NCBI GenBank assembly: GCA_036172455.1
Contig: JAXKVY010000002.1
Location: 372,001 to 436,000 of the forward strand
Source: Candidatus Izemoplasma sp.
GTDB taxonomy: Bacteria > Bacillota_I > Bacilli_A > Izemoplasmatales > Izemoplasmataceae
Direction: 5' to 3'
Length of the DNA: 64,000 bases
The notes below the pieces were generated by a model. It was not told where the DNA came from and did no database searches. It saw only the letters and a list, made by a program, of their open reading frames with translations. The position numbers and the translations under genes are program-made. Shown here piece by piece: positions 8,686-37,483 of this stretch; positions within the stretch are counted from its first letter, which is position 1, and the number at the start of each line of letters is the position of its first letter.

Positions 8686-9009
8686 TCACTCAATTTCCTT
8701 TACTTTGTCTATTAATTCTTTAATCGTAGTTATCTCTTCTAATTCGCCAATCTCACGATAAATGGATTGTCGTTTTTGATAGTTTTGATATAAGCTTAAT
8801 TGTGTTTCATATTCCTCTAATTTTGTCTCTACCCGTTTTAACTGATCAAATACAGCGTTACGGCTAATATGATGATTTTCTGCGATTTCCGTGATGGAAT
8901 AATCATTAAAGTAATAGGCTTCAAAATAGGATTGTTGCTTGTTTGTTAATAATTTACCATAAAAATCATATAGCCGTTGTAAGTAAATAGTATCATCTAA
9001 TGTTTTCAT
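8686..9009 (-). CDS. ylxM: YlxM/p13-family DNA-binding regulator of SRP genes
   Basis: This 107-residue protein of the UPF0122 family resembles a sigma-70 region 4 helix-turn-helix (SITEIAENHHISRNAVFDQLKRVE, residues about 38-60). The gene lies between ftsY and ffh, as in many Bacillota, and the family is tied to SRP function. Its ATG overlaps the ftsY stop in TGATG, so translation is coupled. No own promoter was seen. Confidence 0.9.
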   Translation of the reverse strand: MKTLDDTIYLQRLYDFYGKLLTNKQQSYFEAYYFNDYSITEIAENHHISRNAVFDQLKRVETKLEEYETQLSLYQNYQKRQSIYREIGELEEITTIKELIDKVKEIE

Positions 9010-9977
9010 CAAAATAACCCACTAAATAATCCATACATATATTCTTCTAAGTCAAAATGTTCTAGATCATCTAAACCTTCGCCTAGACCTACATATTTAA
9101 TCGGGATTCCTAACTCTTCTTTAATAGCTAAGGCAATTCCACCCTTAGCAGTTCCATCTAGTTTGGTGAGAACAATGCCACTTAACGATGTCACGTCATT
9201 AAATATTTTAGCCTGTGATAACCCATTTTGTCCTGTTGTTGCATCAATAACTAGTAAGGTTTCATGTGGTGCACCATCTACTTCTCTACCAATAACACGA
9301 TGTATTTTTTCTAACTCATTCATCAAATTTTTCTTATTTTGAAGTCTTCCGGCAGTGTCGCATAAGACAAGATCAATATCATGTTCTTTGGCATAGTTTA
9401 ATGCATCAAACATCACACTTGATGGATCACTTTTCGCAGGTTTTGAAAAAAAATCGCTGCCAACTCGTTGTGCCCATGTTTCAAGTTGTTCAATCGCTCC
9501 AGCACGGAAAGTATCGCCTGCGACCATTAATACTGATTTGCCTTTATTTAGATACTCGTGTGCTACTTTGGCAATGGTGGTTGTTTTACCTACCCCGTTA
9601 ACCCCAACAAATAGTACGACATTTAGTCGCTCGTCTTCAATCGCTAAGTTAGAGGAAACTACATTGTCTTGAACATACAACTTAAACATCTCATCAATAA
9701 TTAACTCTTTAAATGCTTCTGTAGATTCGATCGATTTATCGGATACAGTGTCTTTTAAATGATCAATAAACTTTACGACTGTATCGACACCCATATCCGC
9801 CATAATAAAAATTTCTTCAATATCATCAAATAATGCATCATCGATAGTTTGTGATGATTCGATGACATTTTTTAAATTTGATAAGACACCTTCCCGTGTC
9901 TTATCCATGCCAATTTTATATTTACGTGCTTTTTCTTTTTTTGCTTTACTACTAAATAGATTCTTAAAAAAACCCAT
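9009..9977 (-). CDS. ftsY: SRP receptor FtsY
   Basis: FtsY is the membrane-associated SRP receptor GTPase. The 322-residue form has a short basic N-terminus (MGFFKNLFSSKAKKEKARK) instead of a long acidic A domain, then an N domain and a G domain with GVNGVGKTTT, DTAGR and TKLDGTAKGG. The ATG at 9977 follows AAAGGAAGTG. A promoter at 10006-10035 and an upstream promoter-terminator unit could control it. It heads the ftsY-ylxM-ffh operon. Confidence 0.95.
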   Translation of the reverse strand: MGFFKNLFSSKAKKEKARKYKIGMDKTREGVLSNLKNVIESSQTIDDALFDDIEEIFIMADMGVDTVVKFIDHLKDTVSDKSIESTEAFKELIIDEMFKLYVQDNVVSSNLAIEDERLNVVLFVGVNGVGKTTTIAKVAHEYLNKGKSVLMVAGDTFRAGAIEQLETWAQRVGSDFFSKPAKSDPSSVMFDALNYAKEHDIDLVLCDTAGRLQNKKNLMNELEKIHRVIGREVDGAPHETLLVIDATTGQNGLSQAKIFNDVTSLSGIVLTKLDGTAKGGIALAIKEELGIPIKYVGLGEGLDDLEHFDLEEYMYGLFSGLF

Positions 9978-10005: not shown

Positions 10006-10035
10006 ATTATAACATACGATTGTATCAGTTGCCAT
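10006..10035 (-). promoter_or_regulatory. Probable ftsY promoter
   Basis: ATGGCA (10030-10035) and a perfect TATAAT (10006-10011) are 18 bases apart on the minus strand. They lie downstream of the tandem hairpins at 10052-10086, so ftsY can be transcribed even if those hairpins stop read-through. Confidence 0.55.
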
Positions 10036-10041
10036 TATAAT

Positions 10042-10157
10042 AAAAAAAAAGTCCCTAAAAAGGGAAAATCCGCCTCTCGGCGGATTAAGGAAGGGGATGT
10101 GTGAATAAATAAATTATTCACCATGCTATGTAAGGGATAAGTTGCGACTAAGTCGCA
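10042..10157 (-). ncRNA. Candidate small RNA or ftsY-operon leader with tandem terminator hairpins
   Basis: A strong promoter is followed by about 115 bases with no convincing gene and then two hairpins with a T-run. The 5' end has GCGAC/GTCGC (10144-10156), the middle an eight-base-pair stem GTGAATAA/TTATTCAC, and the 3' end AATCCGCC-loop-GGCGGATT (10067-10086) plus TCCCT/AGGGA (10052-10065) before nine T residues. It has no SRP-RNA signature (GGAAGG with GNAR loop) or T-box sequence. A 29-codon ATG frame runs through the hairpins but has no ribosome site. It could be a free sRNA or an attenuated leader of ftsY. The remaining bases of the 9978-10352 gap hold promoters and an inverted repeat. 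Confidence 0.45.
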
Positions 10158-10162
10158 TCTTT

Positions 10163-10192
10163 AATATAACACGATTTTATAAATTATGTCAA
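10163..10192 (-). promoter_or_regulatory. Strong promoter of the candidate small RNA
   Basis: Minus-strand TTGACA (10187-10192) and TATATT (10163-10168) are 18 bases apart. The -35 box is perfect. Transcription would start near 10156, at the edge of the first hairpin. Confidence 0.65.
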
Positions 10193-10352: not shown

Positions 10353-12413
10353 TTATTTTTTATATCCGCATTGTTTTTGGTCTTGACACATGACAATGCC
10401 ATCTTCATCTTTCATCAATAACTTACCACATTCCGGGCAGGTTTCACCAGTTGGTTCATATTGCAAAATATTACGGCATTTAGGGAAGTTATCACACGCA
10501 TAAAAAGTATTTCCTTTATTGCGGCCACTTTTTGCTACACGTTTAACAATTGTTCCCGTTTGACATTTTGCACAGGTAACGCCTGTCGATTCTGGTTCAA
10601 CTTTTTCTTGTTCTTTGTTTTGCTTAATATACTTACACTCAGGAAAATTACTACATGCTTCAAAAGTTCCATATTTTGATTGCCGATATACCATCTTATG
10701 TCCACATTTTGGACAGGTTTCGCCAGTAAACTTTGGCGCTATTTTTTCCATGTGTTTATTTGCATTTTCTACCATTGGGATAAATGAGTGATAGAAACTA
10801 GAAATGATTTTTGTTTGATCTTCATTTCCCATTGATATTTCATCTAAGACTTTTTCCATGCGGGCAGTATAATCAACACTGATAATTTGAGCAAAGAACT
10901 CATCTAACTTCTCTATTGTCAAACGGCCTTGATCAGTTGGCATAAAGGCTTTTGATTTCATCGTAACATACTTTCGTTTCTTCAACGTTGAGATGGTTTG
11001 TGAATAGGTTGATGGTCTACCAATACCAACTTCTTCCATCTCTTTAATTAATTTTGCCTCTGAAAATCTAGCCGGCGGTGATGTGAAATGTTGTGTCGGT
11101 TCAATCTCATCATGTTTTACCGATTCACCTTCTGTGAAGTCTGGTAATTTTTGATCTGTCACTGTTTCATAATCATACACTCTTAAATATCCATCAAATA
11201 CAAGTTTTTGTGCCGTAGATTTAAAGAGATATACTTTATTCTTAAGTAAAAGAGATGTCGACTCTAAAGTCGCAGCCTTCATCAATGATGCGATCGCCCG
11301 TAAATAAATTAAACGATATAATTTATACTCATCACGTTTTAAATAGGGCTTTACTTCTTTGGGTGTATACTCTACAGAAGTCGGTCGAATAGCTTCATGG
11401 GCATCTTGGGTATTACTCCCATTTTTTGGTTTTTTATAGACCCCTCTGTATTCTTTACCATGGGTCTTTTCAATATGTGATAATGCTGGTTGAATAAAGG
11501 TGTCGCTCATCCGGGTTGAATCGGTACGCATGTAAGTAATTAAACCCACGGTTTCATCACCTAACTCAATACCTTCATAGAGTCGTTGAGCAATCAACAT
11601 TGTCTTTGCGGAACTAAAATTCAATTTAGTAGAAGCTTCTTGCTGCATAGCTGATGTCGTAAACGGTAATTTTGATTGTCGCTTACGATTACGTGTATCA
11701 ATTTTATCAATTGTAAATTGATCGTCTAAATCATTCACAACATCCATTGTTTCTTTTTCATTTGTTAACTCAGCTTTTTCGCCATTGATCTTATCTAATT
11801 CAGCTTCAAAATTTGGAAAAATGGCTTTAATTTTCCAGTACTCATCCGGTACGAAGGCCTCAATTTCTTTTTCTCGTTCAACAATCATCTTCAATGCGGC
11901 ACTTTGAACGCGACCGGCTGATTTAGATTTGATTTTGTTTTGTAATAATTTAGATAACTTAAATCCGATAATACGATCTAAGATACGTCGGGTCTCTTGG
12001 CTCGATACCAGATCATAATCGATATCTCTCGGATGATCAAACGCTTCTTTAACACGATCACGTGTAATCTCATTAAAAATAACGCGTTTAGTTGGTTTAT
12101 CTTTGGTGTTCAGCGTTTCCTTGAGATGCCAACTAATTGCCTCACCTTCACGATCCGGGTCAGTAGCAAGATAGATTTCATCTGCCTTTTTAGCAGCCTT
12201 CTTCAACTCTTTAACAATTTTATTCTTATTTTTAATCACACTATATTGTGGTTTAAAATCATTTTCAATTTCTAGACCTAAGCCACCTTTTCCTTTAATC
12301 GCTAAATCACGAATATGTCCTTTAGATGATAATACATGATAATCATCGCCAAGATATTGTGAAATAGTTTTTGATTTACTTGGTGACTCAACAATTACTA
12401 ATTTCTCTGCCAT
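10353..12413 (-). CDS. topA: DNA topoisomerase I (type IA)
   Basis: The enzyme relaxes negative supercoils through a transient 5'-phosphotyrosine. The TOPRIM domain starts LVIVESPSK and has DPDREGE. The active-site region contains TYMRTDSTR with the catalytic Tyr. The C-terminus has three zinc ribbons of the CxxC-x(n)-C-x(n)-C type (CPKCGH, CAKCQT, CPECGK). Length is normal at 686 residues. The ATG at 12413 follows GTGAGGCG, and a promoter with TTGACA lies just upstream, so it forms its own transcription unit. Confidence 0.97.
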   Translation of the reverse strand: MAEKLVIVESPSKSKTISQYLGDDYHVLSSKGHIRDLAIKGKGGLGLEIENDFKPQYSVIKNKNKIVKELKKAAKKADEIYLATDPDREGEAISWHLKETLNTKDKPTKRVIFNEITRDRVKEAFDHPRDIDYDLVSSQETRRILDRIIGFKLSKLLQNKIKSKSAGRVQSAALKMIVEREKEIEAFVPDEYWKIKAIFPNFEAELDKINGEKAELTNEKETMDVVNDLDDQFTIDKIDTRNRKRQSKLPFTTSAMQQEASTKLNFSSAKTMLIAQRLYEGIELGDETVGLITYMRTDSTRMSDTFIQPALSHIEKTHGKEYRGVYKKPKNGSNTQDAHEAIRPTSVEYTPKEVKPYLKRDEYKLYRLIYLRAIASLMKAATLESTSLLLKNKVYLFKSTAQKLVFDGYLRVYDYETVTDQKLPDFTEGESVKHDEIEPTQHFTSPPARFSEAKLIKEMEEVGIGRPSTYSQTISTLKKRKYVTMKSKAFMPTDQGRLTIEKLDEFFAQIISVDYTARMEKVLDEISMGNEDQTKIISSFYHSFIPMVENANKHMEKIAPKFTGETCPKCGHKMVYRQSKYGTFEACSNFPECKYIKQNKEQEKVEPESTGVTCAKCQTGTIVKRVAKSGRNKGNTFYACDNFPKCRNILQYEPTGETCPECGKLLMKDEDGIVMCQDQKQCGYKK

Positions 12414-36639: not shown

Positions 36640-37483
36640 ATTTTTCATAAATATCTATTATGTGCATTAAATCATCTTCAAAGGCTTTCAAATACTGTTG
36701 GATAAACATCTTAATAGACGTCTTTTCACCACGAACTAATGGCATTAAATCCATTGCATAGGTTGCTCTTTTAACACGATCACTTTGATGTGTTTCATCA
36801 AACGTCGCATTTGCAATACGTCTACCAATAGTAGCATTTACATAGTCTTTACCACTTTCAAGTTGTGAGGTGTAAACACGTAACAAGTGTTCAGATAACT
36901 GAGGATAATTTGAGATATCCAGTTTGACCTTATCTTTCCCCATCCAATCTAAAGCACGCCACACTTCACATCCATATATTTCGCGTGGCCTTTTATTTTT
37001 AGGAAGTCGTCTAATCGCATTAATGACTTGCACAGCGACACCAACATGCGTGGTATGTTTATCGGCTAAGTTATGGGTATAAATAATATCAGGTGTTGTA
37101 AGAGTTAAGATATTATATAAGTCGTCTTCAATATCTGAATGGATAGTTTTCACAGCGCTACTCGGATAATTTAGCAACGCAATGCTGTTGTACTTACCGA
37201 CTCTAGCTGCCTCTAACTGTTCTTCATTGCGGCGTTGGACTATTTCTTGTTCAGTTAGTGTTTGAAAAGATTCGTTTCGGATACTCCCACTACCCGATGT
37301 GACGGTCACACCCGTAAAGAACTTATCATCAGCTTGATAGCAGGTCGCTATGCCGTGATAAGCCATAATTTCAAGATCATCTTGGTGAGCACCAATGGCC
37401 AGATGGGTTGTTTTTGATATAGCCGCCTGTTCATCGTTGTTATCTATTACTTTTAAAATTGCCGTTTTATTATGGAATCGCAT
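36638..37483 (-). CDS. PIG-L (LmbE-like) family deacetylase
   Basis: The 281-residue protein has the zinc-binding motif AHQDDLE near residue 33 and the later His in YTHNLADKHTTHVG near residue 140. The family removes N-acetyl groups from sugars such as GlcNAc conjugates; the substrate is unknown. ATG 37483 has AAGGAG eight bases upstream, while the GTG three codons earlier overlaps it. It follows the CPBP protease by 25 bases. Confidence 0.87.
   Translation of the reverse strand: MRFHNKTAILKVIDNNDEQAAISKTTHLAIGAHQDDLEIMAYHGIATCYQADDKFFTGVTVTSGSGSIRNESFQTLTEQEIVQRRNEEQLEAARVGKYNSIALLNYPSSAVKTIHSDIEDDLYNILTLTTPDIIYTHNLADKHTTHVGVAVQVINAIRRLPKNKRPREIYGCEVWRALDWMGKDKVKLDISNYPQLSEHLLRVYTSQLESGKDYVNATIGRRIANATFDETHQSDRVKRATYAMDLMPLVRGEKTSIKMFIQQYLKAFEDDLMHIIDIYEK

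Follow-up and report, generated by a model that had tools for sequence, protein, structure and literature searches.

The region between topA and ftsY in this Candidatus Izemoplasma genome raises the question of what a unit that runs from a promoter to a terminator, and holds no gene, may encode. In the window, which is the whole stretch of DNA analysed (64,000 nucleotides), this unit is found on the minus strand at positions 10192–10042, between topA (10353–12413) and ftsY (9009–9977), and the neighbours topA, ftsY, ylxM and ffh are backed by Pfam. The initial annotation proposed an undescribed small RNA that either stands alone or serves the SRP operon as a control leader. Its description of the locus is accurate: the TTGACA/TATATT promoter lies on the minus strand where it had been placed, the region was correctly positioned and contains no gene, and its stretch of about 115 bases carries hairpins (four stems if counted singly), the last two in tandem and followed by nine T (Table 1). 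The predicted transcript extends from about 10157 to 10042, with a length of about 115 nt.

Table 1. Features of the unit between topA and ftsY and of the adjacent ftsY promoter, in the order of transcription
Feature	Positions	Strand	Description
Predicted sRNA promoter	10163–10192	-	TTGACA 10192–10187, 18-nt spacer, TATATT 10168–10163, TG-extended (TGT-TATATT)
Hairpin 1	10143–10157	-	TGCGAC-TTA-GTCGCA, predicted RNA 5′ end; 6/6 pairs changed on both sides
Unpaired segment 1, C-rich putative seed	10122–10142	-	ACUUAUCCCUUACAUAGCAUG, 21 nt
Hairpin 2	10101–10121	-	GTGAATAA-TTTAT-TTATTCAC; 5/8 pairs changed on both sides
Unpaired segment 2, C-rich putative seed	10087–10100	-	ACAUCCCCUUCCUU, 14 nt
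Hairpin 3 (first terminator stem)	10067–10086	-	AATCCGCC-GAGA-GGCGGATT; 8/8 pairs changed on both sides
Hairpin 4 (second terminator stem) and T9	10042–10065	-	TCCCT-TTTT-AGGGA 10065–10052, T9 10050–10042
Separate ftsY promoter	10006–10035	-	ATGGCA-18-TATAAT, TG-extended (TGT-TATAAT), TATAAT 10011–10006

The promoter of the unit matches the consensus at 11 of 12 positions and is the top one of 23 promoter-like sites between 8000 and 13000, where 19.7 such sites are expected by chance, so that a single site means little. The homologues are more informative. The -10 box ends 5–6 nt ahead of hairpin 1 in 67 of 70 distinct copies, and a promoter score of at least 9/12 is reached in 64 of the 70, against about 12% of shuffled upstream stretches. 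The copies beside ftsY have TTGACA, or nearly so, as their -35 region, and in 40 of 42 distinct ftsY loci the 3′ side of the unit has five or more T in a row. The predicted elements thus give the layout of a stand-alone gene, with a promoter and an intrinsic terminator, as in the sRNAs of the UCCC type. Because the homologues share promoter, stems and terminator, the unit is more than a chance feature.

The DNA search of 61 genomes revealed the unit in 36 of the 37 genomes of the same family, at E values no higher than 1e-25, and the sole miss (G018) is a genome that is 67% complete. In the rest of the order, a strong match (E below 1e-19) was obtained in three of 24 genomes (G040, G044 and G053), all with the type in which hairpin 2 reads GTGTGT..ACACAC. 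Sixty stretches were found by motif, on contigs with names that include Candidatus Izimaplasma, Candidatus Izemoplasma, Mollicutes, Mycoplasmatota and Tenericutes bacterium; the loci are not independent counts, since many of these contigs belong to genomes already in the set.

With the covariance model R1, matches were obtained in 50 of the 395 genomes of the class. The broader model R2 gave matches in 74 of 395, a few of them doubtful, and in 27 of 295 genomes in a sample of the phylum, all 27 within this class; these tallies include the doubtful matches L161, L183, L159/L160 and L180. By family, R2 matched 32 of 88 genomes in f12 and 13 of 28 in f18, and the RNA was found in none of the 29 genomes of g143, a small-genome genus of f12 that may be phytoplasmas. 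With R2, in 800 kb of two genomes the known copy scored 125.3 bits and nothing else scored above 15.5, and in the window this locus scored 123.2 bits and nothing else scored above 11.6.

Some matches were not counted as members. L161 (G066) and L183 (G124) are weak and have no motifs. L159 (2474–2563) and L160 (124–213) form a near-identical pair of CU-rich units in G320, which end in terminators and match the model weakly; they may be unrelated, possibly another C-rich small RNA. L180 (2510–2621, G038) has just the 3′ half of a copy of the mobile type and is apparently the relic of an element end.

The position beside topA and ftsY is shared by distant relatives. Among 20 distant loci (L165–L184), topA adjoins the RNA in 16 and ftsY in 10; among 18 others (L145–L162), both genes are present at L147 and L158 and neither at the rest. 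Several f12 copies are adjoined by topA alone, with no ftsY, and the f18 copies have other neighbours, with no ftsY adjacent. Since the distant loci fall in families f3, f7, f12 and f16, the order topA-RNA-ftsY is probably ancestral. What the distant forms retain is a C-rich segment resembling ACUUAUCCCCUA and, after a hairpin, a second segment resembling AUCCCCUU, followed by a terminator stem. In f3, a strongly diverged form with shortened C-rich segments lies between topA and ftsY (L181, 2521–2619, minus strand, G048); other members of that family carry mobile copies of the main type. Two model matches on the same strand, about 430 bases apart, perhaps form a tandem pair in another genome (G216, contig C60, 51800–51912 and 52346–52431, L157).

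The predicted RNA folds at -36.9 kcal/mol (z -6.55), and none of 200 shuffled sequences was equally stable. In 73 distinct aligned rows, in an alignment fitted to the covariance model and so biased toward its structure, standard pairs occupy 99.1% of the cells; both partners vary in 19 of the 22 base pairs, and doubly changed cells number 197, compared with 32.6 after shuffling. When the partners were slid by 1 to 3 columns, pairing dropped to 30–58% of the cells. With distant families included, and under the same bias, 98.7% of the cells are paired and both partners vary in 20 of the 22 pairs, with 176 doubly changed cells. The pair count comprised 77 rows (73 distinct), with one reverse-strand match each from L030, L012, L100 and L029, which are a product of the palindromic hairpin 1; these were removed for the conservation count (73 rows, 69 distinct). 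The MAFFT alignment A1 was not used for pair counts because hairpin 1 is misaligned there. The changes in this hairpin can also be seen by plain inspection, without a model, in the variants TGCGAC..GTCGCA, GCAATC..GATTGT, GTAGCA..TGCTAC, GTAGGA..TCCTAC and GCTACT..AGTAGT. Four representatives share one fold, composed of hairpin 1, hairpin 2 and the terminator stem.

The unpaired segments are kept almost unchanged while the stems are rewritten. Across the 69 distinct copies, segment 1 has 19 of its 21 columns conserved at 97% or more and segment 2 has 10 of 14. Hairpin 1 has none of its 12 stem columns at this level, hairpin 2 has 8 of 15 and hairpin 3 has 2 of 16. In the 72 loci with ftsY downstream (42 distinct flanks), the flanks are 28–32% identical by a crude ungapped comparison, and the core occurs in three variants for segment 1 and in one for segment 2. 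Both segments present AUCCC at an unpaired site, another character of the UCCC-type sRNAs, and the complement of segment 2, as read from the sequence, is AAGGA-AGGGG-AUG, like a ribosome-binding site followed by a start codon. An extra copy in G008 (L060, 2022–2133) has diverged strongly: its three stems all differ in sequence from the usual ones, and its seeds are nearly intact.

A second copy of the RNA is located in this genome at positions 176005–176090 of contig C3 (L021/L043), and some genomes have several copies in differing contexts, including places far from ftsY. The most stable fold of this second copy deviates from the common one, as part of segment 1 pairs with an AAGGG in this copy. 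The second copies (L021/L043, L028–L031, L052–L054, L091 and L116) have other -35 regions, such as TTTGCA and TTGTAA, and may therefore answer to other signals. They often have a GCA/TGC repeat nearby, and in most cases a large lipoprotein-like gene precedes them.

Other copies are associated with mobile elements. In eleven loci a gene for a serine recombinase, or a piece of one, is directly upstream of the RNA; the distance is 31–40 nt in nine of the eleven, and a second recombinase gene precedes in seven. In L124, both proteins have Resolvase, Recombinase and Zn_ribbon_recom domains in Pfam. Copies of the RNA are also present on four IMG/VR contigs and on the plasmid CP017949 of Tenericutes bacterium MO-XQ; a search of a phage collection for the RNA gave no match. 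A gene for tRNA-Leu, tRNA-Cys or tmRNA lies nearby in eight of 17 scanned loci, some of which are duplicates of each other, and this proximity suggests that the RNA marks the end of an element at an att site. At L049, L055, L062, L085 and L121–L124, a copy of the RNA forms the end of an element with tandem large serine recombinases and lies near tRNA-Leu, tRNA-Cys or tmRNA genes. Nearly identical copies occur in genomes of families f1 and f3 (L055–L058), which suggests transfer between them. In the mobile copies hairpin 2 is replaced by GTGTGT..ACACAC and the stems are unlike those of the chromosomal type, with the seeds unchanged.

Taken as a whole, the unit is almost certainly a stand-alone conserved RNA. 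Of the two forms that the initial annotation had offered, an undescribed stand-alone small RNA is the one that stands, given that no Rfam family fits, the stems covary, promoter and terminator are its own and it recurs in other contexts. A role in cis, as leader or attenuator for ftsY and the SRP operon, would agree with the position of the RNA upstream of ftsY, in the same family and in distant ones. The unit, however, ends in terminator stems, past which ftsY has a promoter of its own, as had been annotated, with a TATAAT-like -10 box in all 42 distinct ftsY loci. Moreover, a leader or riboswitch of this operon would always lie upstream of the gene it regulates and share its transcript, and there is no ftsY beside the second, mobile and f18 copies, and only topA at several f12 copies. 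Because ftsY has this conserved promoter and copies exist far from it, we consider the RNA to be stand-alone, and the leader to be very improbable.

It is slightly less probable still that the sequence is conserved as DNA, for instance as the recombination or attachment site of serine recombinases. The recombinase genes directly upstream in the eleven loci speak for it, but the primary copies of the family are flanked by topA and ftsY with no recombinase, and a conserved promoter and terminator, together with compensatory changes in the stems, would not be expected of an attachment site. The least credible reading is an mRNA for a small peptide starting at the ATG of segment 1. Members of the family share this ATG, and in the window a short frame begins with it; nevertheless, its distance to segment 2 does not keep the frame (remainders 0, 2 and 1 in 36, 20 and 14 of 70 copies), it is absent at that place in most distant families, and the changes observed are compensatory pairs.

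As for known RNAs, the Rfam scans of the window and of 20 homologous loci found only a tRNA at the gathering threshold, and the matches below threshold scored 12.9 to 18 bits, including Qrr and RsaE. The initial annotation had named an Rfam hit and a lack of conservation as grounds for giving up its proposal; no family reached the gathering threshold at the locus or its homologues, and the RNA is conserved in nearly all genomes of the family with covarying stems. It had also seen no signature of SRP RNA, and rightly, as RF00169 has no match in the region. An identity with SRP RNA was rejected, with no RF00169 match anywhere in the window and the SRP RNA of this genome lying at positions 37474–37568 of contig C6 (57.2 bits); the likeness to the bacterial small SRP RNA is limited to the neighbourhood of the SRP protein genes.

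Membership in RsaE/RoxS (RF01820) was likewise rejected, given 15.0 bits and an E of 6.5 against a gathering score of 79; no match above the cut-off was found in 390 genomes of the class, and a B. subtilis control was above it. The analogy is nonetheless kept: both RNAs have a 5′ stem and a terminator with several C-rich regions left unpaired in between, and the run AUCCCCUU is common to both in the covariance-model alignment. The new RNA differs in having three stems before the tail, other sequences and another genomic place. RoxS pairs with Shine-Dalgarno regions (PMC4409812), and unpaired UCCC is the site at which LhrC and RsaE/RoxS contact Shine-Dalgarno sequences (PMC4132741, PMC4409812). 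LhrC of Listeria monocytogenes resembles the new RNA in its several copies per genome and redundant CU-rich UCCC sites (PMC4132741), but has CU-rich sites in loops too, whereas those of the new RNA are between hairpins, and there is no Rfam match at the gathering threshold. The CiaR-dependent csRNAs of Streptococcus are also several closely similar small RNAs per genome (PMC3091779, PMC4507080); the new RNA differs from them, in a comparison made by description and Rfam only, in having one copy fixed at topA-ftsY.

In the literature search, no description of this RNA was found, nor of any sRNA regulator in Izemoplasma or Acholeplasma. A Tenericutes genome was analysed in PMC8632094, which names an Acholeplasma motif upstream of aroF; the RNA is not described in the parts that the search covered, and an unnamed listing is possible in the supplement, which lay outside the search. 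By analogy, the unit most likely represents a new RNA family of a known kind, the UCCC-type sRNAs such as LhrC, csRNA, RoxS and FsrA.

From this likeness we consider it fairly probable that the RNA acts in trans by pairing with Shine-Dalgarno sequences. It would be a stand-alone RNA of about 115 nt, with its ancestral place between topA and ftsY, whose transcription, from a sigma-70-type promoter of its own, would begin with hairpin 1 and stop at the pair of terminator stems. Two unpaired C-rich seeds, and perhaps a third in the tail UUUUCCC, would be displayed on the scaffold formed by the stems. Base pairing of the seeds to G-rich Shine-Dalgarno sequences, and of CAU to start codons, would block translation or mark mRNAs for decay, which is how UCCC-type sRNAs act in low-GC Gram-positives. 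With their other promoters, the extra copies on the chromosome could feed several signals into one regulon, and mobile elements carry copies with the same seeds.

The genome has strong Shine-Dalgarno sequences. In a duplex-energy test on 389 and 370 predicted gene starts, the seeds bind translation starts better than coding stretches of the same genome (for segment 2, a mean of -8.3 kcal/mol against -4.7 kcal/mol), a preference that shuffled seeds of the same composition reproduce equally well. The comparison of 53 ortholog pairs, drawn from about a quarter of two genomes, yielded no conserved target, and a search of five genomes for complements of the seeds with up to three mismatches found the RNA genes and scattered, chance-like hits only. 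The best of these, a 14-nt perfect complement to segment 2 (AGGAAGGGGATGTG), is located just before an orphan gene of 91 aa in another genome (L227, G011, 996–721, minus strand); this match is weak, since the gene has no relative in 48 other genomes of the family and no Pfam match. Because the target tests were negative or did no better than composition, the mechanism is one that we infer.

The negative target searches, by duplex energy, ortholog pairs and complementarity, would also suit an RNA that mainly binds protein. In such an RNA the AUCCC(C/U)U motifs, repeated and unpaired, would serve as a sponge or scaffold for an RNA-binding protein (of the KH, cold-shock or Rho type, for instance), with mRNA pairing secondary or absent. 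Two similar motifs flank a hairpin, near-invariant in the family and recognisable in other families, and the near-absolute invariance of about 35 unpaired bases exceeds what generic Shine-Dalgarno pairing should require. Against that pairing also stands the second copy in this genome (L021), in which the most stable fold buries part of segment 1. Protein binding nevertheless seems unlikely to us: no protein partner is known, and UCCC sRNAs with tested mRNA targets share a similar layout (PMC4409812, PMC4132741). Shine-Dalgarno pairing in trans remains our preferred reading.

A wider scenario, which we put forward tentatively and would not call probable, is that an old core sRNA of the Izemoplasma/Acholeplasma branch, retained beside topA and ftsY, has been captured by prophages or integrative elements and spread between families, to act on the sRNA regulon of the host at entry or excision. 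The invariance of the seeds would then reflect a fixed partner, either an RNA-binding protein or a conserved group of mRNAs, with no counterpart known in model bacteria. If this is true, elements carry the RNA beside their recombinases with rewritten stems and identical seeds. The RNA is shared by many mycoplasma relatives in several families and its consensus is computable, and the lack of matches in genus g143 offers a natural contrast. Its function is directly testable, since the RNA occurs in what looks like Acholeplasma, which is culturable, and the mobile copies with the same seeds raise the testable question of how elements tap the sRNA network of the host.
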